From Ignavibacteria bacterium (GTDB lineage Bacteria; Bacteroidota; Ignavibacteria; Kapaibacteriales; UBA2268), in assembly GCA_026416955.1 (NCBI GenBank), contig JAOAEE010000028.1, positions 1 through 46,689 on the forward strand: a DNA stretch of 46,689 nucleotides. Reading direction: 5' to 3'. Of the stretch, positions 2 through 31,091 are shown piece after piece. A program made the position numbers and the translations under genes. The notes beneath the pieces were generated by a model, which saw only the letters and a program-made list of their open reading frames with translations, did no database searches and was not told the DNA's origin. The stretch's first letter is position 1; each line of letters begins with the position of its first letter.

Positions 2-3000
2 AAAGATATTACACCCCCAACAATTTCTTCGTTTTCAATGAGTTGTACACCATCGATAACTGGAACAATTACATTTAGCGAACCAGTTTATGCCAATAAC
101 AATGCTACTGGAAACCTAACTTCTGCAAATATTAGCGTAACTAAGTCTGGTGGTAGTGCAAGTATAAATACATCGAGTATTACCCATACTGCTGGTTCGA
201 ACACTGCAACCGTAAATATTAACTGGGCTGGAACATTGAATGGATTTGAACTTGTTCAAGTCAGTACACAAAGTGGTACTTCTGTTTACGATGCTGCCGG
301 CAATGCAATGGCACATCCAACCACAGCCACAGACTATGCAAATGTGGATATCACAATTGTTTCCCATCCGAGTAATCAATCTGGTTGCGTGGGAACGAAT
401 GTCAACTTTTCTGGCTCGGCAACTGGTGGTGCTGGTTTGCAGTATAAATGGCAATTATCTACAGATGGTGGAAATAATTTCAGTGACATATCCGATGGTG
501 GTGTTTATAATGGCACATCGACTACCACTCTTGCCATCAATGGTTTAACAAGTGGTATGAATAACTATCAATATAAGCTAAAAGCATATAATGAATGCGA
601 TACTAAATATACGAATGCAGCAACCCTTACTGTGCATCCTGCTACAAATATCACTACGCATCCTTCGAATACCACAATTTGCCAAGGTTCAACCGCTACA
701 CTAACAGTTTCTGCTGTAGGTGTTTCTCTAAGTTATCAGTGGCAATTCTGGAATGGTTCTTCTTGGGCTAATGTATCAAATAATACACCAAGTGGAGCAT
801 CATATACTGGTGGTAATTCTAATCAATTGCAAATAAGTGGGTTAAGCGCTGGAACTTATGATTATCGTGTAATTGTTTACGGTGGGTGCTCTCCAACCTC
901 GGTAACCTCAAATACAGCAACTGTTACTGTAAATGCTCAACCTTCTATTACTGGAAATCCATCGGATGCGACAGTTTGTAGTGGCTCATCAACTTCATTT
1001 AGTGTTAGCTCCGCAAGTGGTACACTAAATTGGCAAGTTTCAACGGATGGAGGTAATTCATACACTGATTTAACTAACAACCCGCCTTATAGCGGAGTAA
1101 ATTCTACTACTTTAAGTATAAATAATGTTACTACTGCTCTTGATGGTTACAAATATCGTTTGAAAGCAACTTCTGGGGTATGCAATCCCCAATTTTCTAA
1201 TGCTGCTACATTAACAGTACTAACTTCTCCATCAATTAGTTCACATCCCTCAAATGCAACACAATGTCAAGGGAATTGGACACAAGGATTCTCGGTATCT
1301 GCAAGTGGAGGTTCTTTATCATATCAATGGCAATTCTCTTCAGATGGAGTTAATTGGAGTAATGTAACTAATAATACACCAACTGGTGCCACATACTCTT
1401 ATGTAGGCCCAGAATCATTAGAGGTAAACAGCAATGTAATTGCTCCTGGAACTTACTATTATAGAGTAATCGTTTCAAACACTTGTGGTAGCGTTACATC
1501 CAATAGTGCTCAATTAATTGTTAATCCACCTACTTCTATAACTACTCATCCAACGAGTGCAACTATCTGCCAAGGTCATACATCTCAGCAATTTACAGTG
1601 GTTGCTAGTTACACTGGTACACCTACTTATACTTGGCAATTTAGTTCAGATAACTCTAATTGGTCTAATGTAACGAATGGAACACCCTCGGGGGCTTCCT
1701 ATTCCGGGCAAAACACTGCGACACTTACAGTGACCACAAGTTCAATTCCACCGGGAAATAATTATTATTATCGAGTTATAGTATCTGGTGCTTGTGGTAC
1801 TGCAACATCAAATTCAGCCCAACTAACAATAAATCCCACAACCAGTATTACAACGCAACCACCATCTTCAGTGTCTGCTTGCGCAGGTGGTTCTATCAAT
1901 GTAAATATTAGTGTTTCCGCAACTGGTACATCTCTTACTTACCAATGGGAATTTAGCTCCGACCATAGTACTTGGAATTCTGTTAGTAATGGACAACCAA
2001 CTAACGCTAGTTATTCTGGTGCTACAAGCTCTACTTTAACTATTACTGGAAATGTACCTGCTGGTACTTATTATTATCGAGTTTATGTTTCGGGTAGTTG
2101 TGGTAATGTTACATCGAATGTTTGCACTCTATATGTAAATCCTCCTGCAACAATTTCGTCCCATCCATCGAATGCTAGCCAACCACAAGGAACTTGGAGC
2201 CAAAACTTCAGTATCACTGCAAGTAATTATTCAGCAATTCAATGGCAATACAGCTCTGACAATACCAATTGGTCGAATGTTTCAAATGGTATTCCAACTA
2301 ATGCTCAATACTCTGGTGCTAATACAACCACTTTAACTGTTCAAAGCACTGGTTCTGGAATCCCCGCTGGAGTATATTATTATCGTGCGCAAGTAACAGG
2401 ATGTCAGGGTACTATTAATTCTAATTCTGCAATGTTAACAGTTACCAATACTCCAACAAAACTTGCGATAATAACAACCATTGGAACCCAAGTACACAAC
2501 CAGTCATTTAACATTCAGGTTCAATCCCAAGATAATAGCAACAATCCAGCTCCTGTGAGTAGTAATACCAATGTAACGATTAGCGTTAACTCTGGTTCTG
2601 GGACTGTCACTGGCTCGGGAACGATTTCTGCTGGTACCCATACAACAACGATATCAGTAACATATTCTCTAAGTGGTTCCGATGGTGAAAACAACGTTAA
2701 TCTAAAGGCTAGCGCTTCTGGACTAAGCGATGGTGTATCGAATACATTCACTGTGCTTCCAACCGAACCGACCACGCAAGCCAGCGGAATATCTCTTGTA
2801 AGCCGAACTCAAAGTAGTATAACGGTGTCCTTTACCGCTGGAAACGGTTCTGGAAGGTTAGTTGCTGCGACTAAGAATTCATCCACGTATAATGGAAACA
2901 CGCCCACGGATGGTACTTCATACAATATTGGCGCATCTTTTGGAACTAATACTGAAATCATTCAAAAGGGTAATGTGACAGGTGCAACTGTTACTGGATT

Positions 3001-3418
3001 GAATAATGACAGCTGGGCAACCTTTAGGGTATTTGAGTATAATGGTAATAATGTCCCGAATTATAGGACTACAACAGCAAGTAATAATCCACGGGCATTG
3101 AAATCACTTCCAAAGGAAGTGCAAGTGGATGCACCTACAGCAAATTACTTCTTAATTGGAGGATTAATGCCCAATCCAGTAACGGATGAAGGATTTACTT
3201 TACATCTTGTAACCGACGTTGAGGGAACAGTTGTACTTGAAGTTGTTAATGAACTTGGTCAGATAATTCTATCAAATACCAGTTACTTAGATGCTGGAAA
3301 TCATTTTATTAACTTGAATATGCCTAATAATGGTTCACCTAATCCAGCTGGTATTTATTTCGTTCGTGTAACTTTGAACGGCGAAACACTCGTGCAAAAG
3401 TTCGTGTACTTACCGTAA
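2..3418 (+). CDS. Secreted Ig-repeat protein with T9SS C-terminal sorting domain (5' truncated)
   Basis: The frame is open to the left edge (base 2, residues KDITPPTISSFS before the first Met at base 38), so the real start lies outside the window. About seven Ig-like repeats of roughly 90-95 residues follow between bases 360 and 2450, each opening with an HPSN/HPTS-type motif, then Cys-x-Gly, a central YQWQFSSD-like core and a closing ATLTV-like strand. A filamin/Big-like domain (about 2452-2760) and a fibronectin-like domain with the FEYNGN motif (about 2765-3110) come next. The last 90 residues (GGLMPNPVTDEGF, then LVQKFVYLP at the end) are a typical type A T9SS sorting domain, so the protein is probably exported through the outer membrane and anchored or released there. 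The binding partner is unknown; an adhesin or structural role is inference. Confidence 0.9.
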   Translation, partial: KDITPPTISSFSMSCTPSITGTITFSEPVYANNNATGNLTSANISVTKSGGSASINTSSITHTAGSNTATVNINWAGTLNGFELVQVSTQSGTSVYDAAGNAMAHPTTATDYANVDITIVSHPSNQSGCVGTNVNFSGSATGGAGLQYKWQLSTDGGNNFSDISDGGVYNGTSTTTLAINGLTSGMNNYQYKLKAYNECDTKYTNAATLTVHPATNITTHPSNTTICQGSTATLTVSAVGVSLSYQWQFWNGSSWANVSNNTPSGASYTGGNSNQLQISGLSAGTYDYRVIVYGGCSPTSVTSNTATVTVNAQPSITGNPSDATVCSGSSTSFSVSSASGTLNWQVSTDGGNSYTDLTNNPPYSGVNSTTLSINNVTTALDGYKYRLKATSGVCNPQFSNAATLTVLTSPSISSHPSNATQCQGNWTQGFSVSASGGSLSYQWQFSSDGVNWSNVTNNTPTGATYSYVGPESLEVNSNVIAPGTYYYRVIVSNTCGSVTSNSAQLIVNPPTSITTHPTSATICQGHTSQQFTVVASYTGTPTYTWQFSSDNSNWSNVTNGTPSGASYSGQNTATLTVTTSSIPPGNNYYYRVIVSGACGTATSNSAQLTINPTTSITTQPPSSVSACAGGSINVNISVSATGTSLTYQWEFSSDHSTWNSVSNGQPTNASYSGATSSTLTITGNVPAGTYYYRVYVSGSCGNVTSNVCTLYVNPPATISSHPSNASQPQGTWSQNFSITASNYSAIQWQYSSDNTNWSNVSNGIPTNAQYSGANTTTLTVQSTGSGIPAGVYYYRAQVTGCQGTINSNSAMLTVTNTPTKLAIITTIGTQVHNQSFNIQVQSQDNSNNPAPVSSNTNVTISVNSGSGTVTGSGTISAGTHTTTISVTYSLSGSDGENNVNLKASASGLSDGVSNTFTVLPTEPTTQASGISLVSRTQSSITVSFTAGNGSGRLVAATKNSSTYNGNTPTDGTSYNIGASFGTNTEIIQKGNVTGATVTGLNNDSWATFRVFEYNGNNVPNYRTTTASNNPRALKSLPKEVQVDAPTANYFLIGGLMPNPVTDEGFTLHLVTDVEGTVVLEVVNELGQIILSNTSYLDAGNHFINLNMPNNGSPNPAGIYFVRVTLNGETLVQKFVYLP

Positions 3419-3432
3419 GGTAGTGTTTTGCG

Positions 3433-3468
3433 AACCGCTCCGAGAATGCTTCTCGGAGCGGTTTTTTT
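3433..3468 (+). terminator. Rho-independent terminator after the Ig-repeat gene
   Basis: A perfect 14-bp stem (3433-3446 with 3450-3463, arm AACCGCTCCGAGAA) with a 3-base loop is followed at once by a T run. It begins 14 bases after the stop codon at 3418. Confidence 0.93.
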
Positions 3469-3480
3469 ATGTAGTATTTT

Positions 3481-3488
3481 TAATTTTG
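3481..3488 (+). promoter_or_regulatory. Putative Bacteroidota-type -7 promoter element (TAATTTTG)
   Basis: TAATTTTG matches the TAnnTTTG -7 consensus known for Bacteroidota. It follows a terminator directly, and the ATG at 3496 is only 8 bases after the final G. Transcription starting about 5-7 bases downstream would leave almost no leader if 3496 is used, or about 14 bases if 3508 is used. Confidence 0.6.
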
Positions 3489-3495
3489 CTTTTTT

Positions 3496-4554
3496 ATGGG
3501 TTTGCTTATGAAAAGATTTGTTTTTGTTCTTGCACTTTTGGTACCTTTTACTTTATTTACACAGATAAAATTTGATATTTTGGATGTAGGTTCCGATAAA
3601 ATCGTTTTGGAAATAAAAAACCAAACCAAGAATGATATCGAACTTTTTATTTCGCTTGAAAAGTTTAAAAAAACAAGTTTTTATTTCAAAGAGTTGTTAA
3701 ATCCAAACACTTCTGATAAGTTGGATTATTCAAAGCTAAAACCTTTCCCTGGAATAGGTAATTTCTTATCAAAAGTTCCTAAAGGAAAAGTTCAAAAGTT
3801 TGAAATATTTTCCTTGGAACCAAAAAGGGAGTATTATATTTATGCTTTCCAAAGGTCTAAAGATAGCGTCAAAGTACTCCAAAGCTTTCTCTTCAATACA
3901 TTGGCCGAGAAACCTTCGAGGCAAGCTTCGCAATTGGCATTTTCAGAGATTACCGATACTTCAATTGTTATGTCCTGGCTGAATGGCAATGGCGAAGGAC
4001 GAATTGTAGTAATCGGTCCCCCAAAAGATTTCTCTAAACCCAAGAATGGAACTGCATATCCATCATCGCAAGTCTATGGTAAGGAGTCTTCGAAATTAGG
4101 AAATTGCTATGTTGTTTACGATGGAAAAGACCTACGACCAAAAATTACTATTTCGAACTTGAAACCTGCTACTCAATATCAAGTTTCTTTGTTCGAGTAC
4201 AATGGAAACGGAAATTATAGACATTACAATTTCGAACAAAGTTCGAACAACCCAAGGGTATTTATAACGAAAATTTCCACACCTAAAATCATTTCAATCG
4301 ATGGAACCCAGGAAGAAACTTGGTTGGTTCGTTGGGAAAAAGTAAATGGTGCAAAAACATATATTCTTGACCTTGCGTTAGATAAAGAGTTCAAAGAATT
4401 AGTTGAATCATACCAAAATTTAGACGTAGGGGACCTTGGAGAGTTCGAGTTGAGCGACTTAAAGCCAAGGACTAAATATTTTGTTCGATTAAAAGCCAAA
4501 GGGGAACACAGCGAAAGCGCTTATAGCCCAGTCTTTGAGTTTCAAACAAAATAA
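3496..4554 (+). CDS. Exported fibronectin type III-like domain protein
   Basis: 352 residues. An N-terminal signal peptide (MKRFVFVLALLVPFTLFTQ, from the second Met at base 3508) indicates export. The body has about three beta-sandwich, fibronectin III-like units, with loops such as LEPKREYYIYAF, LKPATQYQVSLFEYNGN and LKPRTKYFVRLKA. The middle unit (residues about 140-255) resembles the next-to-last domain of the preceding Ig-repeat protein, including FEYNGNGNYR and a SNNPR tail. There is no T9SS sorting domain, so a periplasmic or surface-associated location is inferred. It has its own promoter-like element and lies after a terminator, so it is probably a separate transcript. Start is 3496 or 3508; neither has a clear Shine-Dalgarno sequence. 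No enzymatic motif is visible. Confidence 0.8.
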   Translation: MGLLMKRFVFVLALLVPFTLFTQIKFDILDVGSDKIVLEIKNQTKNDIELFISLEKFKKTSFYFKELLNPNTSDKLDYSKLKPFPGIGNFLSKVPKGKVQKFEIFSLEPKREYYIYAFQRSKDSVKVLQSFLFNTLAEKPSRQASQLAFSEITDTSIVMSWLNGNGEGRIVVIGPPKDFSKPKNGTAYPSSQVYGKESSKLGNCYVVYDGKDLRPKITISNLKPATQYQVSLFEYNGNGNYRHYNFEQSSNNPRVFITKISTPKIISIDGTQEETWLVRWEKVNGAKTYILDLALDKEFKELVESYQNLDVGDLGEFELSDLKPRTKYFVRLKAKGEHSESAYSPVFEFQTK

Positions 4555-4640: not shown

Positions 4641-6578
4641 TTACTTGGTTAGATAAAGTACTAACCCCGCGTCTTTAGAGAAGTCAATTTGTTTGTATGT
4701 ATGGGTTTCCGTCTTTACACCAATAATGTTGTATTTGTCGTCTCTTTCGAGCCATTTTATTTTGCTAACAAGTTGAACTTTAGTAAGTAATTTTCTAATG
4801 TCATCTTTGTCCAGATGAATCCATTGGAGAATATCTGAATACCACATAATCTTGTCTTTTTGGGTTAATTCGATTTCAAATTCCTCCGTATCGGTAACAT
4901 CGTAGCCACCTTCTGTTTGGGGGTATATTATTTTGTGTTTATAAATGATTTTATTCACATAGTTTTTATTGAATGGGTCCATCTCGACATACAAAGTTTT
5001 ATCGGTTTCGGTATTGCTAGTAGTTTCTTTTAAATTATAATTGAATTTGTTTCCCTGCCAAACGATACTGTTTTTGGAAGTAAAATCGAAATTAAAAGAG
5101 GAAGTATTAGAAGTTCCTTCCTCAAACATTTCGAAAACTAAATTAATGAAGAATTGCTTTAAGTGGGAATAATCGGACTTTGTTTCGGTTGGCGACCAAT
5201 AAGTAATTCCCCAAAAGTTTACAAAGGCTTGGATTTTCTTTGCGTTCTCGACTTTTGATTTATCAACGGAAAGTTCAAATTTCCCGTCAATACATTCTAC
5301 CTTAATGTTTGAATTATCAATTACTATGTAGACCGGACCACTGTAATTTATTTTATTTTTGTATTCATCTGTTTCGACCGAGAAAACTTCGCCTTTTATT
5401 TCTCCCCTTGAATAGTCTATATTAGAAATATAGACACTTAATGTTGGCATAAACAAAGCAAAGTCTTTCAATGCACACCAAATGAAATTTGGAATTAATT
5501 CGGAAGCCTGGGATTTTACACATTCAAGGTCTATGTAAGGATACCCACGATTTCCAAAAAGGGATGAGAAGTAACCATCGTCTTTGCACATTTTGATCTT
5601 GCGGCCGCTAGGAAATGTTTTGTAGTAAGTAAATTCTTTACTGTCATAATCTAAATTTTCAAGTTTTGGAGAAGAATATGCTTTTTCTCCGTTCAGTGGT
5701 TTGATTACATTAGTTCCCTGCTTACCTGAAATTGTTTCACCAGTGAAAAAGTTTGAGTTAGTAAATTTAGCAAGTGCTTCGTGAACCTCGCGAATTGTTT
5801 TAAAGGTTGAGAGTTGTGCCTTTAGGTTTGGGTCGGGTTCGCCATTTGCGTATTCTTTTGCCCAAGATGTTTTGAACATTTCTTCGTAAGGGTCTGGGCT
5901 ACCAAAAGCCCATCCCCAGGAAAGTCCCAAAGGGGCAGCGTGACTGTCGTTGCGGACGTGGGGCGGGCAAGCCATATCGGCTAAGTTGTGCAATACTTCG
6001 CCGAAGCATCTCCAAGCCTTTGCAAGAAGTTGTCTTTTTTTATTATCATCTTTTTCTTGTATTGCTTGAACAATGTATTCTTTACCCTTTTCCAAAGACC
6101 ACTTATTAGCAGAGCCTTTTGGTGTATCTCCTAAAGCCCATTCTATTGCATCAATACCAGGATTAGAATAAAAACCTTCCCAGTATGTACCGCGATTAGA
6201 AAGGTATTTTTTCCCAGAGTTCAACCCTACAGGGTCGTAGAAGTGACGAACCGCAGCAGGAACTTCTGGTTCGTCTGCAGACATTCCGCCGTGTGCAATC
6301 CATTCAGCTGGGGTAAGACTTAAGTCTGATTCACCAGTAGTTGATTCGAAGAAACCCAAGTTTGTTACTCCCGGTCCATTCATTTTGTTCAAATTATCGC
6401 TTAATTTTAATTGAAATCCATTTTCCTCGATATTAGAGTTTTTAAGCAAATCTTCTAACCATTCAACAAAAACTTTGTTTAAAGTTGTGTGGGCTTTTGT
6501 ATTTTCATAACTTACCAATGAAAAATGGATTAATAAGTAGAATGCAATTCCTAAAAAAACAAAAATTAATCGTTTCAT
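4641..6578 (-). CDS. Exported zinc-dependent phospholipase C-like (S1/P1 nuclease fold) protein
   Basis: 645 residues with an N-terminal hydrophobic signal or anchor (residues 3-23). Residues 30-232 carry the metal ligand pattern of zinc phospholipase C such as the Bacillus cereus enzyme: H30 in an early helix, D102 in SADEPEV, H112 in the hallmark HFYDP, and H197-x3-D201-x5-H207 in GEVLHNLADMACPPH, the same spacing as H118/D122/H128 of the Bacillus enzyme, then E232 in PYEEMF. The Bacillus H142 equivalent is not obvious (D229 lies nearby), and the free N-terminal Trp ligand is not apparent. The last 400 residues are unlike that family as far as I can tell and may be a beta-rich extension. 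ATG at 6578 has GAGG upstream. It starts 10 bases after the 140-residue gene, so the two form an operon. The substrate (phospholipid or nucleic acid) cannot be told from sequence. Confidence 0.65.
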   Translation of the reverse strand: MKRLIFVFLGIAFYLLIHFSLVSYENTKAHTTLNKVFVEWLEDLLKNSNIEENGFQLKLSDNLNKMNGPGVTNLGFFESTTGESDLSLTPAEWIAHGGMSADEPEVPAAVRHFYDPVGLNSGKKYLSNRGTYWEGFYSNPGIDAIEWALGDTPKGSANKWSLEKGKEYIVQAIQEKDDNKKRQLLAKAWRCFGEVLHNLADMACPPHVRNDSHAAPLGLSWGWAFGSPDPYEEMFKTSWAKEYANGEPDPNLKAQLSTFKTIREVHEALAKFTNSNFFTGETISGKQGTNVIKPLNGEKAYSSPKLENLDYDSKEFTYYKTFPSGRKIKMCKDDGYFSSLFGNRGYPYIDLECVKSQASELIPNFIWCALKDFALFMPTLSVYISNIDYSRGEIKGEVFSVETDEYKNKINYSGPVYIVIDNSNIKVECIDGKFELSVDKSKVENAKKIQAFVNFWGITYWSPTETKSDYSHLKQFFINLVFEMFEEGTSNTSSFNFDFTSKNSIVWQGNKFNYNLKETTSNTETDKTLYVEMDPFNKNYVNKIIYKHKIIYPQTEGGYDVTDTEEFEIELTQKDKIMWYSDILQWIHLDKDDIRKLLTKVQLVSKIKWLERDDKYNIIGVKTETHTYKQIDFSKDAGLVLYLTK

Positions 6579-6588
6579 TATTGCCTCG

Positions 6589-7011
6589 CTAAAATCTCAC
6601 AAGTTTCCAAACCCCATCGCCGCTTTGAGCAAAAGCTATGGTATAAGTTTTGCCATCGATTTGAATTTCGTATTCTGCATAAAAGTTGTTTGCGAAGAGT
6701 AGTTTCTTTTTTGTTAATGCTTCACCAAATTTCTTTAACAAATCTGGGTCGTTTGGAAGGTATTCTTTTGTGACATTTGCGAATTCTTCGTATGTAACTG
6801 CTAAAACGCTATCCCGAGAACCACTTTGGAAAGCATTTTCCGCTCGCTTTGCAAATGATTTCAATTCTGGTGTTTCCATTCCTATGGAATTATCATCACC
6901 CGGACCAGTTACTTTATCTGGACAGTTCGTTAGATTGAAAAAGATAAAAGCCAGAAGGAAACCAAAAATAAAAGGTTGAATAGTATACACTATCAACTTG
7001 GGGAATTTCAT
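6589..7011 (-). CDS. Small membrane-anchored or lipoprotein-like protein, function unknown
   Basis: 140 residues. An N-terminal hydrophobic segment (about residues 8-28) ends in LTNC at Cys30, an imperfect lipobox, followed by a polar Pro/Gly/Asp-rich linker. The rest is a helical stretch (residues 48-105) and a short C-terminal beta part (EYEIQIDGKTYTIAFAQ then GVWKLVRF) that looks like the end of a small NTF2-like or DUF4878-like domain; this is only a resemblance. The start at 7011 has a good ribosome site (GGAGG, 6 bases before ATG). The phospholipase C-like gene follows 10 bases downstream, so the pair is probably cotranscribed and may act together in the envelope. Confidence 0.65.
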   Translation of the reverse strand: MKFPKLIVYTIQPFIFGFLLAFIFFNLTNCPDKVTGPGDDNSIGMETPELKSFAKRAENAFQSGSRDSVLAVTYEEFANVTKEYLPNDPDLLKKFGEALTKKKLLFANNFYAEYEIQIDGKTYTIAFAQSGDGVWKLVRF

Positions 7012-7157
7012 AAAACCTCCGTGAAGTGAAAAAATAAGTTAACAAATAAAACTTGTTTATATGGATAAAATTCGGGATTATTCTGTAAATGTATCCAAAT
7101 GTTGTTTGTTTGGAAACGCTTTCGGAATTGTAATCAATTAAGATGTAAGGATATATA

Positions 7158-7213: not shown

Positions 7214-8776
7214 TTATTTAGCAAAGGCGAAACTTCTTCTTTCGCGAATAACAGTAACTTTTATTTGTCCGGGATATTCCATTTCTTGCTCAATTTTTTT
7301 AGCAATGTCGTGTGCAAGTTGGTCGGAAGTAATATCGTCTACTTTATCTGGTTCGACAATAACGCGAACTTCTCTTCCAGCCTGAATTGCAAAGGTCTTT
7401 TGAACACCTTGGAAACTTTGGGCAAGAACTTCGAGTTTTTCTAATCTTTTAACGTAATTTTCCAAGGATTCTCTCCTTGCTCCGGGTCGGGCACCGCTAA
7501 TGCTGTCGGCTGCTTGGACAAGAACAGCATAAGGAGTTTCCATATCAATATCTTCGTGGTGGGCACCAATAGCATTGGCAACAGCGGGATGTTCCTTATA
7601 TTTCTTAGCGAGTTCATATCCAATCAATGCGTGTGGTCCTTCTGTATTCTGGTCGACGCATTTGCCGATATCGTGCAAAAGACCAGCTCGTTTAGCTATT
7701 TGTGGGTCAAGACCGAGTTCTGCTGCCATAATCCCACAAAGGTAAGCCACTTCGATGGAATGATTTAAGAGGTTTTGCCCGTAACTTGAACGGTATTTCA
7801 TTTTACCAACTAAACGTACAAGTTCAGGGTGTAGGTTATGGATACCAAGTTCAAGTGTTGTTTGCTCTCCAACTTTGATGATTTCTTCTTCAAGTTCGTT
7901 GCGTACTTTTTCAACGACTTCTTCTATACGGGCTGGGTGAATTCTACCATCTTGCATAAGGCGTTCAAGGGCAATTTTAGCGACTTCTCGACGGAACGGG
8001 TCGAAACCAGAAATTACAACTGCCTCCGGTGTGTCGTCAATAATTAAGTCGACACCAGTAGCCGATTCGAATGCACGAATGTTTCGGCCTTCTCTACCGA
8101 TAATTCTTCCTTTCATTTCGTCGGATTCGAGGGTTACAACAGATACTGTACTTTCGATGCTATGGTCGGAAGCAGTCCTTTGAATTGCTTCCAAAATGAT
8201 ATTTCTTGCTTCGCGTTGAGCGTTTTGCTTGGCTTCGTCGCGTATTTGTTTGATATATTGAGCAGCATCGGCTTTTGCTTCGTTGATTAGATTGTCCATT
8301 AAGATTTTTTTTGCTTCTTCGCTTGAAAGACCACTTATTTCTTCCAACTTTTTGATTTGTGCAATCTTTAAGCTTTCAATTTCATCAAGTTTTTGTTTGA
8401 TTTGGGCTTCCTTTTGCTTTAGGTCTTGCTCGGTCAGTTCGAGCTGCTTTTCTTTTTTCGAAAGTAATTCTTGCTTGGAGTTTAGAGCTTCTTCTTGCGA
8501 TTTAAGAAGTTTTTCTTGCGCTTGTATTTTGGTTTTTCTTTGCTGATATTCATTTTCAAATTCTTGTTTTCTTTTGTGCCATTCTTCTTTAACTTCGAGT
8601 AATTTTTCTTTTTTTAGGTTGTTAGCCTCTTTTTCTGCCTCTTTGATAATGTTATTTGCTTTTTCTTCTGCTTCTTTTATTTTCGAAGAAAAGGATTTTT
8701 GAGTAATAAAGTAAGCAACTCCAAAACCAAGCAAAAGCCCAACTATTGCTCCAACAACGATAATGACTTCGTTCAT
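7214..8776 (-). CDS. rny: Ribonuclease Y
   Basis: 520 residues, the usual length. Domain order is diagnostic: one N-terminal transmembrane helix (residues 4-24), a long charged coiled coil (about 28-200), a KH domain with [15 protein letters not shown] (223-237), and an HD phosphohydrolase domain with the metal-binding HD pair at H368-D369 (AGLLHDIGK). RNase Y is a membrane-tethered endoribonuclease that initiates mRNA decay and processing. ATG at 8776 is preceded by GGAAGG. It follows the 6S-like RNA, which ends in its own T run, so rny may be transcribed partly from a separate start in the 72-base gap. Confidence 0.97.
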
Positions 8777-8848
8777 AGTTCTACCTTCCGTAAACTAAAC
8801 CAAATAATAATAGACGAATAAAAAAATACAAATTAATAAAATATAAAG

Positions 8849-9072
8849 AAAAAACCGCATTATCGCCTTGCCCATTCACAATACTGAGTCGGAAAGAACC
8901 CAATCCGACACAGTGGGTACCATCCTGACTATATTTTGCTTCCACTGGACATCTTTGAAGATGTCGCCACAATAAGTGGCTGAGGCCTGCAATTTATAGC
9001 CAGAGCCTGGTTCCCTTTTATTATCACTAACAGTTCTTCCGCTCATTTGGGGGCAAGGCTCTAATGCGGCTT
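8849..9072 (-). ncRNA. ssrS: 6S RNA (regulator of RNA polymerase)
   Basis: Read on the minus strand, the segment folds as one long rod. The ends pair as GCCGCATTA with TAATGCGGT, then GCCTTGCCC with GGGCAAGGC. Further in, CGGAAGAAC pairs with GTTCTTTCCG, GGGAACC with GGTACCC, and TGGCTATA with TATAGTCA, around local hairpins GCCAC-TTATT-GTGGC and GACATCTT-CA-AAGATGTC. A T run (complement of 8849-8854) ends it like a terminator. An about 220-nt, rod-shaped RNA directly downstream of zapA is the classical context of 6S RNA, which binds the housekeeping RNA polymerase and mimics an open promoter. No clear -7 element lies just upstream, so it is likely processed from the zapA transcript (17-base gap). 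The assignment rests on fold and context, not on a database match. Confidence 0.75.
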
Positions 9073-9088
9073 AAAATTTCAAAGAACG

Positions 9089-9367
9089 CTATGTGCTTGT
9101 GTTTTCGATAAGATATAATGTTATTTTCTTTATTTCATCAATTAAATAATTTGTGTCGACTTTGCTCTTGAATTCGCATAGTTTGAGTTTTTCGGCAATA
9201 TTAATTGCTGTAAGTGTAAACACAGTTTGTATCGATTCGTCCTTATACTTTTCCATAATATGCTTCAATTGTTCTTCCACTTCGTTAACAGCACTTTTAA
9301 TGATACTTTCATTTTCGCCTTTTAATGTGTATTCGTTGCCAAGAATTTTAACTTTAATTTTTCCCAT
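9089..9367 (-). CDS. zapA: Cell division protein ZapA
   Basis: About 92 residues from the ATG at 9367 (a TTG two codons earlier, at 9373, is the alternative). The sequence opens with KIKVKILGNEYTLKGENE, the beta-hairpin front of the ZapA family, followed by a long helix (ESIIKSAVNEVEEQLKHIME) and the conserved middle segment TVFTLTAINIAEKL before a C-terminal helix. ZapA binds FtsZ protofilaments in the cytoplasm and stabilises the Z ring. The location upstream of 6S RNA, as in many bacteria, supports the call. Confidence 0.9.
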   Translation of the reverse strand: MGKIKVKILGNEYTLKGENESIIKSAVNEVEEQLKHIMEKYKDESIQTVFTLTAINIAEKLKLCEFKSKVDTNYLIDEIKKITLYLIENTST

Positions 9368-9432
9368 ACTCAAAAAGCAAAATAATAAAAAAAACTAAAT
9401 TTCAAATAAGTAGAAAACCAACCAAGAGTAAA

Positions 9433-10815
9433 TCAATCTTTTTTCGAGCCAATTATAAGTGTTTTATTTCTAAGTAGATGAGAATAATAGTTTAATACAA
9501 AAAAAACAAAGGATAAATCCATCCATAGGATAAAGTAAATAAGAATATTGGCAGTAAAAGAACATCGAATTATTTCGAATAATGCAATATATGGTGCAAT
9601 TCCTATGAGTTTTTTCTCTTCGACCGGAACTAAATTGCTTGCACGAACAATTTTATATAGTTTAATTGAACCAAAAAGTAGTGAATATAATAAAGCATTG
9701 AAAATAATGAAATTGAAAATACCACATTCTGCCAAAACGGAAAAAATTGTTGTATCACTAAAAAGTGCAACAAATTCTTTTTGATACCCTAACAGACCCA
9801 AACCTACGCCAAACAAAGGATTTTGTGCCCAAATTGAAATTGTTGCAAGTGTATTGTTTAGGCGGGTGGTAAAACTTTCGCCACCCATTTCGTCGCTTCC
9901 AAGTGTAAAAATGTTTTCGACACGGATAAAGAAAAGCTTTAATAAGTCTATCCCAAATAATTCAATCATTAATAAGTTCGAAACGATAATTATTACTATT
10001 CCAATAAGTATAATTTTAAAAATAAATTTATAGGATTCAAAATATTCCAGAAAGAAAACTAATAGAAGAACACCCAAAAGGCTTGCCAAACCTGTCATAG
10101 AGTATGTTAAAAACAAAGCGATAAGGCAAACACTTACAAAAAGGATTAGCAACTTGTTTCCTTTAACGAAACTTGAGCGGTGTTGTATCCAAGGGATAAC
10201 TAAAAATATAAAAAGAAAAATGTTGAAACTTGCCAAGACACTTGGTTCCACAAAAATTGAATTAACTCGATAAAAGGAACCAAAACCTATTGTAGTTTGT
10301 TGGATGTTACCAACAATTTCTAAGCGGGACATAATGGAAGTATTTGAGTATTCGAGCCAACCAAAAGGCAAACCTAATGCACGCGCAAAAAGTTGGTAAA
10401 TTCCATATAAATCGAAAATAAAGAGTATCCAAATTAAACCTTTTATGATATAGATAAATGTTTTGGGTTTCAAAAGTTCAGAGTAAAGTAGAAAAATATA
10501 GAAGATTATATAATAATAGTGTAAGGTCGACTTAATATTTTGGGTTATTTGTGCAGTATCACCGTTTAAAATTGGATTTAGCATTGTAAAAATTAGTAGA
10601 GTATTAAAGGTAAGAAACAAAACATTTGGATAATTTATCGCAATTTGCAACTTTTTTTTCATAAAGAATATAGAAATAAGCAATAATGTGTATGAAAATA
10701 AAACATTGAAGTCCAATGAAGTAACACCATAATTTAGAATAAAGAAAATTGCCCACCCAAAAAGGAATTGAGTGAAAAAGGTTAATCCAAAACTTATATT
10801 GTAAAGTTTTTCCAT
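9433..10815 (-). CDS. O-antigen ligase/polymerase-like polytopic membrane protein
   Basis: About 460 residues from the ATG at 10815, with 10-12 predicted transmembrane helices. A periplasmic loop contains Arg-rich, amphipathic sequence and the motif NPLFGVGLGLLGYQKEF, a hallmark of the Wzy_C/WaaL (O-antigen ligase or polymerase) superfamily, which transfers or polymerises lipid-linked glycans on the outer face of the inner membrane. A TTG at 10845 is the upstream alternative, but a TAATTTTG promoter-like element lies between it and the ATG, so 10815 is preferred. No glycosyltransferase cluster surrounds it; it stands between tRNA-Arg and zapA. Ligase versus polymerase cannot be decided. Confidence 0.75.
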   Translation of the reverse strand: MEKLYNISFGLTFFTQFLFGWAIFFILNYGVTSLDFNVLFSYTLLLISIFFMKKKLQIAINYPNVLFLTFNTLLIFTMLNPILNGDTAQITQNIKSTLHYYYIIFYIFLLYSELLKPKTFIYIIKGLIWILFIFDLYGIYQLFARALGLPFGWLEYSNTSIMSRLEIVGNIQQTTIGFGSFYRVNSIFVEPSVLASFNIFLFIFLVIPWIQHRSSFVKGNKLLILFVSVCLIALFLTYSMTGLASLLGVLLLVFFLEYFESYKFIFKIILIGIVIIIVSNLLMIELFGIDLLKLFFIRVENIFTLGSDEMGGESFTTRLNNTLATISIWAQNPLFGVGLGLLGYQKEFVALFSDTTIFSVLAECGIFNFIIFNALLYSLLFGSIKLYKIVRASNLVPVEEKKLIGIAPYIALFEIIRCSFTANILIYFILWMDLSFVFFVLNYYSHLLRNKTLIIGSKKD

Positions 10816-24231: not shown

Positions 24232-24239
24232 TAATTTTG
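24232..24239 (+). promoter_or_regulatory. Putative -7 promoter element (TAATTTTG) for the ammonia-lyase gene
   Basis: TAATTTTGC, 18 bases before the ATG at 24258, with GGTGAG as the ribosome site. The TTG at 24237 that would extend the frame lies inside this element, which argues for the ATG. Confidence 0.6.
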
Positions 24240-24257: not shown

Positions 24258-25781
24258 ATGGCAATTATTTTGGATGGTAAAAGTTTAACGATTGAGAAAC
24301 TTGTAAAAATTGCAAGATATGGTGAAAAGGTTGAATTAGCAAATGACACCCTTGAAAAAATCAAAGCTTGCCGCGAAATGCTTGAAAGAAAGCTTGCCGC
24401 AAAGGAAGTTATGTACGGAACAAACACTGGAATTGGGGAATTCTCTGAAATTGTGCTTTCAGACGAACAAGTGAGGGAGTTTCAACGGTATCTCATTTAT
24501 AATCATTCTGCTGGTATTGGGGAACCAATGCCTATTGAATGGGTACGCGGTGCAATAGCGAGTAGAATTAATGTTCATGCTAAAGGATATTCCGCCTGCC
24601 GTCCTGAAATTACCTTAACCTTGGTAGAAATGTTGAATAAAGGGGTTATCCCAGTTGTTTGCACCAAAGGCTCGGTTGGTGCTTGTGGCGACCTTGCTCC
24701 AATGTCGCAGATTGCTTTACTTATGATGGGTGAAGGGGAAGCATTTTACCAAGGAGAGCGTTTACCGGGCAAAGTTGCTTTTGAAAGAGCTGGTATCAAA
24801 ATTCCCGGCTTGCAAGTTCGCGATGGTCTTGCGATTATTAATGGTTCCAATTTTATCACTGCAATTAGTGCTTTACAACTTTGGGATATGAAGAATTGGA
24901 TAAAGCAAGCTGAAATCGCAGCAGCAATGACGCTCGAGGCTCTTCTTGCAAATTTAAAGCCCTACGACGAAAGAGTTCATAAATTACGTGGGTTCGAAGG
25001 TGCTATAAAAAGTTCCCGTACAATTATGAAGTGCATTGAAGGAAGTGACCTTTTGACTGGGAAAGTTAAAACTAAAGTGCAAGATGCTTATTCTATGAGG
25101 TCGACTCCACAAGTTATAGGTACTGCAAGAGATGCCATTGACTACGCTTGGAAACAAGTAGAAATTGAACTAAATGGTGTAGGCGACAATCCAATATTTA
25201 TTGTTGATGATAACCTTACACTTACAGGGGCAAATTTTCAAGGAACACCTATTTCGCTACCAATGGATTTTGTAGGTGCTTCGATTACAATGGTATCTGT
25301 TTTGTCTGAACGAAGACTAAATAGGCTTTTAAATCCCGCACTAAATCAGGGACTTCCTGCCTTTTTGAGTTTGGACCCCGGCTTTTATTCTGGGATGATG
25401 TTGAGCCAATATACAGCCGATATGCTCATTGTAGAGCAAAGAATACTTTCTGTTCCTGCTTCAATTCAATCTATCCCCGCTGCTGCGGACCAAGAAGATT
25501 TTGTTTCGATGGGAATGAACACTGCTTTAAAGAATTCACAAATACTGGACAATGCTTATGGTGTGCTTGGAATTGAGTTTATGGCAGCAGCCCAAGCTCT
25601 TGATATTAGAAAGTTCAAAGTTGGTAGGGGTGTCGAAATTGCTCGCAAAGTTATTCGGAAGTATGTCGATTTTCTTGATATCGACCGCCCACTTTATCCA
25701 GACCACAATGTGATGAAAGAACTTGTAAAAAGTTGCGAAATTTTGTTGGAAGTTGAAAAAGAAGTTGGTCCATTAGATTAG
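24258..25781 (+). CDS. hutH: Histidine ammonia-lyase homologue with Cys143 in the MIO motif
   Basis: 507 residues from the ATG at 24258. Lyase active-site residues fall at the same numbers as in the Pseudomonas putida enzyme: Y53 (YGTNTG), H83 (NHSAG) and N195 (INGSN), with Q275/R281 (QDAYSMR), F327 (NFQG) and Q412-E413-D414 following. The cofactor motif Ala-Ser-Gly, which cyclises to the MIO electrophile, reads Ala142-Cys143-Gly144 here (codon TGT at 24684-24686). The family deaminates L-histidine to urocanate; the His at position 83 favours histidine over tyrosine or phenylalanine. No hutU, hutI or other histidine-pathway gene is near, so the substrate is inferred. ptb follows after 8 bases. 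Confidence 0.85.
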   Translation: MAIILDGKSLTIEKLVKIARYGEKVELANDTLEKIKACREMLERKLAAKEVMYGTNTGIGEFSEIVLSDEQVREFQRYLIYNHSAGIGEPMPIEWVRGAIASRINVHAKGYSACRPEITLTLVEMLNKGVIPVVCTKGSVGACGDLAPMSQIALLMMGEGEAFYQGERLPGKVAFERAGIKIPGLQVRDGLAIINGSNFITAISALQLWDMKNWIKQAEIAAAMTLEALLANLKPYDERVHKLRGFEGAIKSSRTIMKCIEGSDLLTGKVKTKVQDAYSMRSTPQVIGTARDAIDYAWKQVEIELNGVGDNPIFIVDDNLTLTGANFQGTPISLPMDFVGASITMVSVLSERRLNRLLNPALNQGLPAFLSLDPGFYSGMMLSQYTADMLIVEQRILSVPASIQSIPAAADQEDFVSMGMNTALKNSQILDNAYGVLGIEFMAAAQALDIRKFKVGRGVEIARKVIRKYVDFLDIDRPLYPDHNVMKELVKSCEILLEVEKEVGPLD

Positions 25782-25789
25782 GAGAAATT

Positions 25790-26686
25790 ATGGTTTTAAC
25801 TAAGTTGGAAAATCTAATCGAAATTTCTTTGAGTAAACCAAAGAAAAAGATAGCAGTTGCTGCTTCCGAGGATGAGCAAGTACTTCTTGCTTTGAAACAA
25901 GCAAGCGAATTAGGAATTGTTGAGCCTATATTAATTGGTGATTTGGAGAAGACAAAGAAGCTTTCGGAGCAAATTTCTTTTGAAATTTCTAAGTATGAGC
26001 GTATCGAAGAGAAGAACCCATCTCTATCTGCAAAAATAGCTGTTAGACTCGTTAGGGAAGGAAATGCTCAAATAATTATGAAGGGTCTAGTTAACACTGC
26101 GGATTATCTTCGAGCAATCCTTGATAAAGAAATTGGATTAAGAACTGGAAATTTACTAAGTCACATTGGAATTTTCGAAATTCCAGAATATCATAAGTTG
26201 ATTGGACTGACGGATGCTGCTCAAAATATTTCCCCAAATCTTGAGGAAAAAGTTAATATCATTCTTAATAGCATCGATTTACTTCGTCGTTTAGGTATTG
26301 AAAAGCCAAAAGTTGCGCTCCTTGCGGCAGTGGAGAATGTCAATCCAAAAATGCAAGCAACTTTGGATGCTGCTTTGATAACTATGATGAATCGACGAAA
26401 TCAGATCAAGAATTGTATAATAGACGGTCCTCTTGCTTTCGATAATGCAGTTTCGAAAGAAGCTGCTGAACATAAAGGAATTGATAGCCCCGTTGCTGGA
26501 GATGTTGATTTACTCGTTGCGCCAGAAATAGAAACTGGAAATGCTTTGTACAAGAGTTTTACCTATTTTGCGAGAGGAGTTGTTGCTGCTATTATTCTTG
26601 GTGCATTAGCACCAATTGTTCTAACTTCTAGGGCAGATTCTGAGCGAAGTAAACTAATGTCCATTGCACTTGCTGCTTCCTTTTAA
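25790..26686 (+). CDS. ptb: Phosphate butyryl/acetyltransferase
   Basis: 298 residues, matching Ptb/Pta-fold acyl-CoA phosphotransferases: KIAVAASEDEQVLLAL near the start, KGLVNTADYLRAIL (about 104-117), GIDSPVAGDVDLLVAPEIETGN (about 225-246), and the GVVAAIILGALAPIVLTSRAD end segment. The enzyme swaps CoA for phosphate on short acyl-CoAs (butyryl, isobutyryl, acetyl). No butyrate kinase is adjacent. It shares the ammonia-lyase transcript (8-base gap, AGGAG before the ATG) and ends at a strong terminator. Confidence 0.87.
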   Translation: MVLTKLENLIEISLSKPKKKIAVAASEDEQVLLALKQASELGIVEPILIGDLEKTKKLSEQISFEISKYERIEEKNPSLSAKIAVRLVREGNAQIIMKGLVNTADYLRAILDKEIGLRTGNLLSHIGIFEIPEYHKLIGLTDAAQNISPNLEEKVNIILNSIDLLRRLGIEKPKVALLAAVENVNPKMQATLDAALITMMNRRNQIKNCIIDGPLAFDNAVSKEAAEHKGIDSPVAGDVDLLVAPEIETGNALYKSFTYFARGVVAAIILGALAPIVLTSRADSERSKLMSIALAASF

Positions 26687-26756: not shown

Positions 26757-29700
26757 TTATCTTGAAATTACGATTTTCTTAGTTTGTGAATAACCTCCAC
26801 TTAGCATACGTATAGCATAAACTCCCGAGGCTAAATCCTTTGTCGATACATTCATTTCGTAATTTCCTTGCTCGACATAATCACTAAGGAGTGGAATTAC
26901 TATTCCAGAAGAAAGATTGACTAACTCTATTTTAGTAATTGCATCGAAACTTACACCAAATGATACGGTAAAATTATCCTCTGTAATTGGATTTTTGTTA
27001 ACTTCCAAGAAGTATCCAACTAAAGCAATTTCAATGGGTCTAATGTCGATAACACAAGTATTTAAGACAATTTTCGAAGTATCCCCATTAGGAACAACAC
27101 ATTTATTTCGTGTAAAGAATGTAATATTGTCGATATAAGGATTAAAAACTTTTGCATCTGTAAGAAGTAAAAGAACATTTGGACGCACAAATTCTCCATC
27201 GTTCGATATTGGGTTAGTTCCCGAGCCTTTAATGTGAATGCGAGAATAAGTGTTGTCGATCTTTGTTTGTTCTGCTGTAACGTTCCAGGAGTTATCTAGG
27301 ATTGAACCTTTTTCCACTGAGTTCAATTTTAACCAGTCGGTTTTGTGGATTATATCAAATTCAAAAGAAGTTATCTTGGCATCTTTCCAGTTATTGGATT
27401 TTGCATAAGTAGTGAGTGTAACAACGTAGCCAGGGCTTAAATGCAAATCTGCATCAAGGTCTCGAAGGGTAAGTTGAACATTAACATTGTAGCCAATTCC
27501 AACTAATTCAACGAAATAATTATTTCCAACATCACTAAAAACTCTTAACAATGCCCTAAAGTTTCCAGTTCGGTCTGGTTTAAATTTAACAGGTATTTTT
27601 ATAGTACTTTGTTGTTGAATAGTAATTGGGAAAGTAGTTCCAACTAATTCGAAATTTGTGATGTCGCCAGAAACAAAAACAATACTGTCGATAATAGCGG
27701 ATGTAGTTGTACTAGTGTTTGTTATTGAGAATTCTTTAACTGGTTCGTCGCATAACAAAACAAAACCATAGTTAATCGAATCAACTCTTATTCCTTTTTC
27801 AATTCCGTAGCCAATTACTTCTGTCCTTGTAGTAATAATTGAATCGGGTGCGGGTGAAGCATCGTTTATAACATCTACAAATGCGTTTCGTTTGTTTACA
27901 ACCTTAGGAGTAAACCTGACTGGCAGAACCAAAGAATCTCCCATTGGGAGAACAAAGTTAGATGGTGGTGGAGTAACCCACTCGAACTCATTGAGTGTGT
28001 TTTGGTTCCAATTGATGGATTGAATGAACAAGTCTGCGGTTTGGCTTGTGGATTTAATAACAACTTTTCCAATGTCTGGATGTTGCGTATTAACAAGAAC
28101 GGGGGGCAAGAATTCATAACCTGTTACTTCAATTTTGGGTAAGTAACCAAATCCGTGTAGATTTCCTACTACAGAATTTGGCGGGATATTATCATCAGGA
28201 TGGAATTCAGGAATCACTGTATTGTTGTGGTCAAATTCAGTCTTTGGTTCATAAAGTATTGTAATTTCAATTTGCGTCGTTCCTGTTTGGCTTGTTTCTG
28301 GCATTAGGTCAATAGGAACGCCTGGACTTGGTTCAGGGTTAATTCCGCCGGGTTTAATTCGGAAATTGGGGGAGACTTGTCCTAGGGTTATGTTTGTAAC
28401 CCGTACTCTCGAGCTTCCACCATTTTTCAAATATACTTTACCTTCATTAGAAGTTCCAACCCTTCTTCGATGCCAATCGTAACTAGTAATATATGGACCA
28501 GGTTGAACACCTTCGCCAGTCCAAGTTGAAATACTATCGCCACTACCAGCATTACTGTGAAATACAACATCAATTGAGAATGTTCCAACAGAAGTTGGTT
28601 CAAAGCAAGGTGTTTCTAGGTAGACAATACCTCTTGGTGGAATAATTATTGGTAGACTTGGGTTGTAAGGAGTTGAAAGGGAGAAAGGTTGAGTAACACC
28701 ATCAATTAAATCAATCACAAGAGTGTCTGTTCCGGGATTTTGAATTTGTAAGCCATTGCCAGTTTGTTGCAATTTGCAAACTTTTTTGTTTACCACTGTG
28801 GTACCAGCATTCCAATCCTCGACAAGTATCTTGGGAATTACTCCTCGTCCAATAACAGGGATTTTGAATGTGTCGCAATCTGTGATTGCAATTAATGTGT
28901 CAACATCGATAATATTTGGAGCGAGAGATTCATCTATCGGCGAATACTCAATTTCTAAATTGTGAATTCCTTTTGGTAACAATTCAATTGGTGGGGGTAC
29001 ATTTCCAGAAACAATTTTGAATACAGAAGCCTTTTGCAATTTAACTTCGAGTAGTTTTTCTGTTGTATCTGCATCATTTTTAATTTGGACTGGCAATGTC
29101 TTCGAGGTAAATAATCTAACTTTGCCAAAATTTAAAATTTTTGGGGTAATATTCAATGTGTCGGGGAAAAAATAAAGAGTATCTAATGAGAAATTTCCTG
29201 CTCTATCTGTAATTTGTAAATAGGCAATACCAGGTTTATGTTTGTCTATAACCTGTATAATAAATGTGTAATCATATAAAGGAGGGAAATTTTTAAACTC
29301 TTTGATAAATTTAATTTCGAAATTGTAAGAACTGTCGAGAAGCACAATATCGCTAACACCTTGGTCAACCTGGCGTGGGTTGTCACCGGGTTTACCATTG
29401 CGCAATTCGGTTGTTCTAATTGTGAATATTCCACAGTTTTCTTGGACAAAAATCTCTGGGGGTAAAGTATCAGTTTCATCTACTTTGTTAAAAGCAGTAC
29501 AAGCAGGCCACCCATAGCCATCGGCCTCGCTAAATCCATAAATGTATCCACCGAATTTTGTTTGGCTTCGAACAACGTGACACCCAGGTTGGACAGTTAA
29601 TTTTGCCCAATAAAGGTCGGTACCTGGTATTCGATTGAAAAGGAACTTTGGTTCTAATTGCCAAATTGGCTTACCATCGAGAGTAATTGATTTAAGCAGT

Positions 29701-30992
29701 TTATTTTCAGGGTCATTAGTGTCTCCCACAGCAATGATGTTGAAATAATTTGTTAGGAACTGGGCTTTTGCTTCTGGTGTTTGAAAAATTGTATTTGGTA
29801 CATATTGTTCGCGTGGAATAACAAGTATCATAAATGGGTCGAATTCGGGAGCGTTGTCCCAATCGGTTGAATATGAATATTGCATTACAAGCACGGGTTT
29901 GTCTGCTTCCCAAACAGAAGTTCCCTTTATGGATTCTTGATTGTTAGTTTCGTATCGGGGTACAAAAACTTCTTCGTATTCATCGAAATCACCAGATTTT
30001 CTAAGTAATTTCGGTCCGCGTTGTCCAAGGAATTTCCCGTCTTTTAAGTCGTACCATCTAACTACATATGTTGTATTGTCCTTTGCTGCAATGATTCTAA
30101 AGAAATCCCCACGACCTTTCCTTTGAAATTCAACAGTATAATATTTTTTCCCCCAGGCTTGCACGGGAGGCATCATTTCGCAAAGCATATTTCGACCATT
30201 CCACAAATCGAATGAGGGTATCAAAGTTCTTTTGTGGAAGGAAATGAAACCAACAGGCTTATTTGCAATTACTCTTGAACCAGAAAGGTCGAATTCCCCT
30301 CTTGTAGAACCATCCCCCATAACGCAATAAACTTCACCTTTGTTTAGAGTAACTTTCCATTTATCACCAATTTTTCTCCCACCAAGTGTTTTTCCAATTG
30401 CTTGTCCACGGCCTTTAAGTTCAATGAGTACATCTGTACCGTTTTCTGATGGAATAATAAGGAAGCCACCACCTCTGTATTCACCACCAGCATTGTTTTC
30501 GTAGAAATCGTAGTAGGAAAGGTGGATGTATTCGGTACCACAAGAGGAAATTGGAATTGCAAGATAACCGTCCGCGGTATAACCTCTGTGATTAAGGACA
30601 TAAACTGATATTGGTTCTGTGGCATATAGATGTATTGCTTTTGGGGTAGGTTTTTCGCTTTCTCTAACTTCTAAGTCCCAGTATAAATCGTTATTTACTG
30701 TGGAAAAAGTGGTAATCCGAAAGGCTTCTACTTTTTTTGTCTTGATTACTCCCATCCCTGGTATTTCCAAAGTAACATTGCAATTTTTAGAGGAAGTTAC
30801 GTAAATTTCAATAGCTATTTCACCAGTATTACCATATGGTTGGCGGTCGTCCTCATTTGGTGGGATTGCAATCCAAAACTCACGCCCTTGGGATGAGTTG
30901 AATAAAAGTTGTTCGGGCGTAATTTTTTGAGGAAAAATTTTGTATGAAATGAGCATACAAATGGAAAATAAGGTAATATAGAACATTTTCAT
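26757..30992 (-). CDS. Large exported protein with IgGFc-binding-like front, ASH and cohesin-like domains, T9SS sorting domain
   Basis: 1411 residues from the ATG at 30992, which has GGAG upstream (an in-frame ATG 12 bases before has none). A signal peptide covers residues 1-21. Residues about 25-490 resemble the IgGFc-binding N-terminal domain of some surface proteins (QGREFWIAIPPNEDD; later SSCGTEYIHLSYYDFYEN). Several ASH/choice-of-anchor-type beta-sandwiches follow (SITNTSTTTSAIIDSIVF type repeats), then a cohesin-like domain at about 1150-1310. The last 85 residues (NPITEDNFTVSF to SQTKKIVISR) form a T9SS sorting domain. It is probably exposed on the cell surface; the partner is unknown. 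Confidence 0.85.
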   Translation of the reverse strand: MKMFYITLFSICMLISYKIFPQKITPEQLLFNSSQGREFWIAIPPNEDDRQPYGNTGEIAIEIYVTSSKNCNVTLEIPGMGVIKTKKVEAFRITTFSTVNNDLYWDLEVRESEKPTPKAIHLYATEPISVYVLNHRGYTADGYLAIPISSCGTEYIHLSYYDFYENNAGGEYRGGGFLIIPSENGTDVLIELKGRGQAIGKTLGGRKIGDKWKVTLNKGEVYCVMGDGSTRGEFDLSGSRVIANKPVGFISFHKRTLIPSFDLWNGRNMLCEMMPPVQAWGKKYYTVEFQRKGRGDFFRIIAAKDNTTYVVRWYDLKDGKFLGQRGPKLLRKSGDFDEYEEVFVPRYETNNQESIKGTSVWEADKPVLVMQYSYSTDWDNAPEFDPFMILVIPREQYVPNTIFQTPEAKAQFLTNYFNIIAVGDTNDPENKLLKSITLDGKPIWQLEPKFLFNRIPGTDLYWAKLTVQPGCHVVRSQTKFGGYIYGFSEADGYGWPACTAFNKVDETDTLPPEIFVQENCGIFTIRTTELRNGKPGDNPRQVDQGVSDIVLLDSSYNFEIKFIKEFKNFPPLYDYTFIIQVIDKHKPGIAYLQITDRAGNFSLDTLYFFPDTLNITPKILNFGKVRLFTSKTLPVQIKNDADTTEKLLEVKLQKASVFKIVSGNVPPPIELLPKGIHNLEIEYSPIDESLAPNIIDVDTLIAITDCDTFKIPVIGRGVIPKILVEDWNAGTTVVNKKVCKLQQTGNGLQIQNPGTDTLVIDLIDGVTQPFSLSTPYNPSLPIIIPPRGIVYLETPCFEPTSVGTFSIDVVFHSNAGSGDSISTWTGEGVQPGPYITSYDWHRRRVGTSNEGKVYLKNGGSSRVRVTNITLGQVSPNFRIKPGGINPEPSPGVPIDLMPETSQTGTTQIEITILYEPKTEFDHNNTVIPEFHPDDNIPPNSVVGNLHGFGYLPKIEVTGYEFLPPVLVNTQHPDIGKVVIKSTSQTADLFIQSINWNQNTLNEFEWVTPPPSNFVLPMGDSLVLPVRFTPKVVNKRNAFVDVINDASPAPDSIITTRTEVIGYGIEKGIRVDSINYGFVLLCDEPVKEFSITNTSTTTSAIIDSIVFVSGDITNFELVGTTFPITIQQQSTIKIPVKFKPDRTGNFRALLRVFSDVGNNYFVELVGIGYNVNVQLTLRDLDADLHLSPGYVVTLTTYAKSNNWKDAKITSFEFDIIHKTDWLKLNSVEKGSILDNSWNVTAEQTKIDNTYSRIHIKGSGTNPISNDGEFVRPNVLLLLTDAKVFNPYIDNITFFTRNKCVVPNGDTSKIVLNTCVIDIRPIEIALVGYFLEVNKNPITEDNFTVSFGVSFDAITKIELVNLSSGIVIPLLSDYVEQGNYEMNVSTKDLASGVYAIRMLSGGYSQTKKIVISR

Positions 30993-31091
30993 ACAATTCT
31001 CCAAAAATTAACCTAGCAATATAACAAATTTTTTAATTTTATGTTACAAAAAATAATTAAATTTTATCTTAATATATACAAAAAAAATTCA

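Follow-up and report, generated by a model that had tools for sequence, protein, structure and literature searches.

The tripeptide that forms the MIO group of ammonia-lyases is described in one study (PMC3903478) as strictly conserved Ala, Ser and Gly. The window analyzed here, a stretch of 46,689 nucleotides considered at its full length, encodes an ammonia-lyase that carries Ala-Cys-Gly at this place. Can such a protein still build its cofactor, and if so, what does the enzyme do? We consider it probable that it is a working histidine ammonia-lyase (HAL) in which Cys143 acts as the MIO precursor, with H2S lost on the way to the ordinary cofactor.

The Ala-Cys-Gly tripeptide and its active site

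The lyase gene, the positions discussed below and the adjacent downstream gene are as follows:

24258..25781, + strand: ammonia-lyase gene, 507 aa, of a subfamily resembling histidine ammonia-lyase in which residue 143 is Cys or Ser (open reading frame, PF00221, NCBIfam)
24414..24416, + strand: Tyr53, active site (alignment; invariant in 123 subfamily rows)
24504..24506, + strand: His83, active site (alignment); its neighbor 82 is Asn where HAL has Ser
24681..24689, + strand: Ala142-Cys143-Gly144, the MIO-forming tripeptide with Cys replacing Ser (DNA GCT TGT GGC; alignment)
24684..24686, + strand: Cys143 codon, TGT (DNA; pattern match)
24840..24842, + strand: Asn195, active site (alignment)
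25494..25496, + strand: Glu413, counterpart of P. putida HAL Glu414 (alignment)
25790..26686, + strand: phosphate butyryltransferase-like gene, starting 8 bp after the lyase stop

The lyase reading frame starts with the ATG at 24258, and a further in-frame TTG lies upstream at 24237. Its product matches the PF00221 profile with 534.4 bits over model positions 1-465 of 466, as expected of a full-length family member. Among NCBIfam models, those for histidine ammonia-lyase fit best, although the protein stays narrowly below both cut-offs. Against TIGR01225 (HutH; cut-off 539.15 bits) the window protein scores 488.8 and four other members of its subfamily score 493-505. Against NF006871 (cut-off 524) the window protein (519.7) and the relatives L076 (523.8) and L173 (521.3) fall below the threshold, while L041 (527.8) and L178 (527.9) lie above it. 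An AlphaFold2 model (pLDDT 90.2, lowest at residues 140-142 and 406-410) has the predicted fold of the MIO enzymes HAL, PAL and TAL. Searching the PDB with this model returned HAL first (TM 0.91-0.92, approximately 32% identity); other MIO enzymes fit nearly as well, tyrosine aminomutase and ergothionase reaching TM 0.92.

To place residue 143, we aligned the protein with P. putida HAL (residues 38-493 of 1gkm chain B). There are no gaps between residues 53 and 195, and Cys143 stands opposite Ser143; beyond residue 270 the window numbering runs 1 to 2 below that of P. putida HAL. The motif around Cys143 is KGSVGACGDLAPM. A preliminary description of this DNA had read the codon as TGT, residue 143 as Cys within Ala-Cys-Gly, and Y53, H83 and N195 as numbered in P. 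putida; the DNA and the alignment bear out each of these readings. Y53, H83, A142, G144, D145, N195, Q277, Y280, R283, F329 and E414 of P. putida HAL are all identical in the window protein. They include Y53, H83, N195 and E414, the counterparts of Y52, H82, N194 and E411, which a study of G. kaustophilus HAL lists as essential (PMC11432326).

The same study names a Ser-His motif at 82-83 for HAL (PMC11432326), whereas 123 of 123 subfamily rows have Asn-His there, Cys and Ser members alike. In all, three positions set the subfamily apart from HAL throughout the 123 rows, one row having a gap at position 416: Asn82 for Ser, Gln for His330 and Phe for His416. Ala142, Gly144, Asp145, Asn195 and Phe329 are unchanged across these rows. 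Compared with P. putida HutH (PDB 1b8f, 1gkm and mutants), the window protein is therefore alike in length, fold and the catalytic residues checked, but it differs in Cys for Ser143, in Asn82, in Gln at 330 and in Phe at 416.

The MIO group forms when the nitrogen of Gly144 attacks the carbonyl of Ala142, accompanied by eliminations, one of which removes the hydroxyl of Ser143. The side-chain heteroatom of residue 143 thus leaves and is not retained, so Cys should give the same MIO with loss of H2S. On this chemistry, the sulfur-based cofactor raised in the preliminary description finds no support. We propose that the backbone of Ala142-Cys143-Gly144 would cyclize during folding and that the Cys143 side chain would leave as H2S, where Ser would give water. 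The product would be an ordinary MIO group that strips ammonia off histidine, and the resulting urocanate would pass to HutU, HutI and FtcD, whose genes lie in other parts of the genome.

The S143C mutant of P. putida HAL (Langer, Lieber and Retey, Biochemistry 1994) was reportedly processed to fully active enzyme. It has Ala-Cys-Gly at the same place, as an engineered single change, whereas the Cys of the window subfamily is natural, occurs in many lineages and is reversible. Our best reading is that Cys143 is a natural, recurrent counterpart of that laboratory mutant. Replacing Ser143 of P. putida HAL with Ala, by contrast, lowers activity more than a thousandfold according to PMC3903478, which suggests that an enzyme with residue 143 unprocessed would be nearly inactive.

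Cysteine and serine at position 143 across the subfamily

Each of the five genomes of the genus, the window's own included, has one match to the window protein, and each match carries Cys143. The four other lyases are 83-93% identical to it, and the codon is TGT in some of the five genomes and TGC in others. The preliminary description had proposed comparing homologues and had named the outcome that would count against it, relatives that all have Ser around one lone error; instead, the Cys is common to the genus and to many genomes beyond it. A contig scan for relatives, limited to the best-matching 80 loci (73-91% identity, many phyla) and hence leaning towards the query, yielded, together with the genus members, 85 distinct places among the matches listed, of which 57 have Cys and 28 have Ser.

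We then sampled two phyla, with 395 genomes from the window's own (Bacteroidota) and 400 from that of an Anaerolineae genome (presumably Chloroflexota). The 395-genome sample holds 33 proteins at least 69% identical to the query, and the next lyases are at most 43% identical; in the 400-genome sample, 26 are at least 71% identical and the next at most 44%. Because of this gap (at least 69% versus at most 44%), the window lyase is, judged by its sequence, a member of a separate subfamily that occurs widely among bacteria. At residue 143, 29 of the 33 proteins have Cys and 4 have Ser; of the 26, 4 have Cys and 22 have Ser, and no third residue occurs in either sample. Across both samples, Cys143 accounts for 33 of the 59 members and Ser for the other 26, so Ser is not obligatory in the subfamily.

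Outside the subfamily, the Cys appears to be rare. We searched for DNA encoding Gly-Ser-Val-Gly-Ala-Cys-Gly-Asp-Leu, a pattern that misses Cys after Ser142 or in a Gly-Ser-Leu context. It occurs in 29 of the 395 genomes, always at the subfamily gene, and in 6 of the 400, corresponding to four subfamily genes, one classical HutH (in genome G543) and one site on contig C7 of G464 that does not coincide with the lyase of that genome, itself a Ser form. Among 436 genomes with other lyases only (239 + 197), the pattern falls inside a lyase in one. By this pattern, Cys seems nearly confined to the subfamily, with the G543 gene as a lower bound for classical lyases that carry it.

Classical HutH proteins of the same phyla, such as L026:5565-7109, which scores above both HAL cut-offs, belong to the same family as the window lyase but are only 35-44% identical to it, and 49 of the 50 read have Ser143. 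The G543 protein (L237:2256-3770, within 2169-3773) has a natural Ala-Cys-Gly with codon TGC, as in the subfamily, although it is 40% identical to the query and of the Ser82-His83 type. It adjoins a second lyase with Ala-Ser-Gly (L237:674-2221), the first gene of this tandem HutH-like pair, which scores well above the HutH cut-offs. At the positions aligned with Q277 and Y280 the Ala-Cys-Gly protein has Arg and Leu, and it could be a diverged partner subunit. Many classical HutH genes of the window's phylum (several among L197-L213) read Ser-Ser-Gly in place of Ala-Ser-Gly, and L234 reads Cys-Ser-Gly, so residue 142 varies in genes where 143 does not.

To follow residue 143 through the subfamily, we built trees from 123 distinct rows (74 Cys, 49 Ser) with that residue masked. 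Before counting, we removed L001 and L003-L006 (genus members, all Cys, and the window copy), L132-L165 except L145, L148 and L158 (duplicates of genes already included), 14 identical rows and matches shorter than 1150 bases. With an outgroup in the tree, residue 143 changes 16 times, or 17 if the rows of the outgroup are counted; without an outgroup it changes 17 times. Strongly supported branches alone force 9 changes without the outgroup and 8 with it, the latter count including the outgroup, one row of which is Cys. An earlier tree of 88 rows gave 14 changes, 5 of them forced. Cys and Ser are thus interleaved, and the preliminary suggestion that the Cys might mark one clade has to be abandoned. 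The most similar proteins with unlike residues at 143 are L173 (Cys, codon TGC) and L178 (Ser, codon AGC), which disagree at 15 of 506 positions (97.0% identity).

By contrast with residue 143, none of 19 other motif and active-site positions changes on the tree. For context, 152 of the 506 alignment columns show no variation, and the median is 5 changes per column. Column 347, outside the catalytic motif, is also mixed (80 Cys, 42 Ser), so Cys-Ser exchange is not peculiar to position 143. What calls for explanation is toggling between just two states, each with a side chain that elimination can remove, at a catalytically needed residue in an otherwise frozen site, and as far as sequences can tell, this is best explained if both Cys143 and Ser143 are processed. 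In a separate column, residue 135, Cys occupies 116 of the 123 rows.

The direction of these changes is not derivable from the codons, because Ser is mostly AGY (42 of 49 subfamily Ser rows; 43 of 49 Ser rows of other lyases), one step from TGY either way. Nor did 560 column-residue tests over 9 independent pairs demonstrate a partner residue that follows the switch. The strongest co-varying candidate, Val364, is present in 54 of 74 Cys rows versus 6 of 49 Ser rows; on average it differed in about 5 of the 9 pairs, which is not enough to support a claim. One could imagine that Cys143 is kept on purpose, with a maturation (H2S loss, or a thiol held unprocessed until needed) that is faster or slower than that of Ser or reacts otherwise to redox state or sulfide, and that lineages switch adaptively between Ser-matured and Cys-matured forms, which would make cofactor formation a controllable step. 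We give this idea only a slim chance.

The lyase and the histidine pathway

The preliminary description had noted no hut genes nearby. This is true of the window but not of the genome, in which hutU (911 bits), hutI (431) and FtcD (425) lie on other contigs (C32, C42 and C22), each above its curated cut-off. All five genus genomes have hutU, hutI and FTCD. The window's genome has one PF00221 match; a second lyase was found neither in that search nor in the five genus genomes, for which all candidates were scored. Taking a urocanase of the thiourocanate type as the sign of an ergothionase, we found that the genome's own urocanase is not of this type: it scores 911 against the hutU cut-off of 375 and 680 against the thiourocanate hydratase cut-off of 930.

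The association extends to other carriers of the subfamily gene. All 33 carrier genomes of the class have urocanase. A single lyase match was obtained in 24 of them (21 of the 24 being Cys), a count that is provisional outside the genus because at most three candidates per genome were scored. The other nine have a second match, which in G176 is an end of the subfamily gene split from the rest, so the HAL of these genomes could be another enzyme. Among 50 further carriers, mainly from other groups and sharing at least two genomes with the class set (G440 = G200 and G444 = G039, with the same urocanase coordinates), urocanase accompanies the lyase in 46 (27 of the 29 with Cys and 19 of the 21 with Ser) but not in the other four. 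Given this, and the likeness of Cys and Ser members at the 19 checked positions, the altered substrate that the preliminary description had tied to the Cys finds no support.

As a comparison, we examined 68 genomes with no lyase match (48 of 123 such genomes in one sample and 20 of 177 in the other), which gave three strong and three weak urocanase matches; G333 and two others have urocanase with no lyase found. Fisher's test on 24 of 24 versus 3 of 68 gives p near 4e-19, with relatedness ignored. Co-occurrence alone is nonetheless weak, because 44 of 47 non-carriers of the class also have urocanase, most of them with a classical HutH. The argument for HAL is a different one: these genomes need some HAL, and the subfamily lyase is the one found. 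In combination with the 16-17 exchanges in an unchanged active site, its place as sole lyase beside a hut pathway lends support to the preliminary suggestion that a natural Cys can still yield MIO.

In three loci the subfamily gene has company. An Ala-Ser-Gly HutH lies approximately 0.9-2.5 kb upstream on the same strand in L026, L030 and L076; in L026 the classical gene spans 5565-7109 and the subfamily gene 8001-9521. The subfamily member is Cys in L026 and L030 and Ser in L076. Such pairs may reflect redundancy, assembly into a mixed tetramer or a division of labor.

Competing readings and significance

Several features would suit an MIO enzyme that uses a different substrate (an aromatic or modified histidine) or acts as an aminomutase, with Cys still the MIO precursor. 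The window protein lies under the curated HAL cut-offs, Asn82, Gln330 and Phe416 run throughout the subfamily, nine of 33 carriers have that second lyase match, a classical HutH stands in tandem in L026, L030 and L076, and the gene neighbors are not conserved. Yet every listed HAL contact is kept, E414 included, HAL models outscore the remaining curated models, searches of genomes with complete hut genes found no lyase besides it, and its own genome's urocanase fits the hutU model but none of the thiourocanate models. On balance we hold a different substrate to be unlikely. Still harder to credit is a protein in which Cys143 stays unmodified and which uses other chemistry or acts as a redox or sulfide sensor or a regulatory subunit. 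No observation favors it. Repeated exchange with Ser while 19 checked positions stay constant argues against it, as do the unchanged Ala142, Gly144, Asp145, Asn195 and Phe329 in 123 rows and the hut-pathway genomes without a second lyase; moreover, the S143A result implies that an unmodified site would be nearly dead. We judge this reading very improbable.

An error in sequencing or assembly, or decay of the gene, would make the question moot. Many source genomes are metagenome bins, and two subfamily genes (L158 and L145) are split or cut, but Cys is present in five of five genus genomes with both TGT and TGC in use and in 74 of the 123 distinct rows, and the reading frame is open, without stops. 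Its presence in relatives rules out a lone mutation or error, and the open frame and 73-93% identity to relatives rule out a pseudogene; the chance that the Cys is an artifact is negligible. We therefore return to the working HAL with Cys143 as MIO precursor.

Our search of the open-licence literature found neither a natural Ala-Cys-Gly ammonia-lyase nor S143C, and an earlier report elsewhere is possible. A HAL-like subfamily in which the putative MIO precursor is either Cys or Ser appears to be new within a known family. In effect, nature has mutated the precursor of an autocatalytic cofactor time and again, leaving pairs up to 97% identical, and such pairs make the leaving groups usable in MIO formation directly testable. 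Motif rules that demand Ser would call the Cys143 enzymes dead, and histidine breakdown in such genomes should not be counted as incomplete.

No conserved operon was found around the subfamily lyase, the commonest neighbor clusters occurring in 8-10 of the 84 loci compared. The phosphate butyryltransferase-like gene is a possible operon partner with no part in the cofactor question, and a homologue lies downstream of the lyase in 8 of the 84 loci. Beyond it, on the minus strand at 26757-31004, is a reading frame of 1415 residues with an IgGFc-binding-like domain, Cep192/HYDIN-like Ig domains and a weak Por secretion tail, which we read as a large surface or secreted protein.
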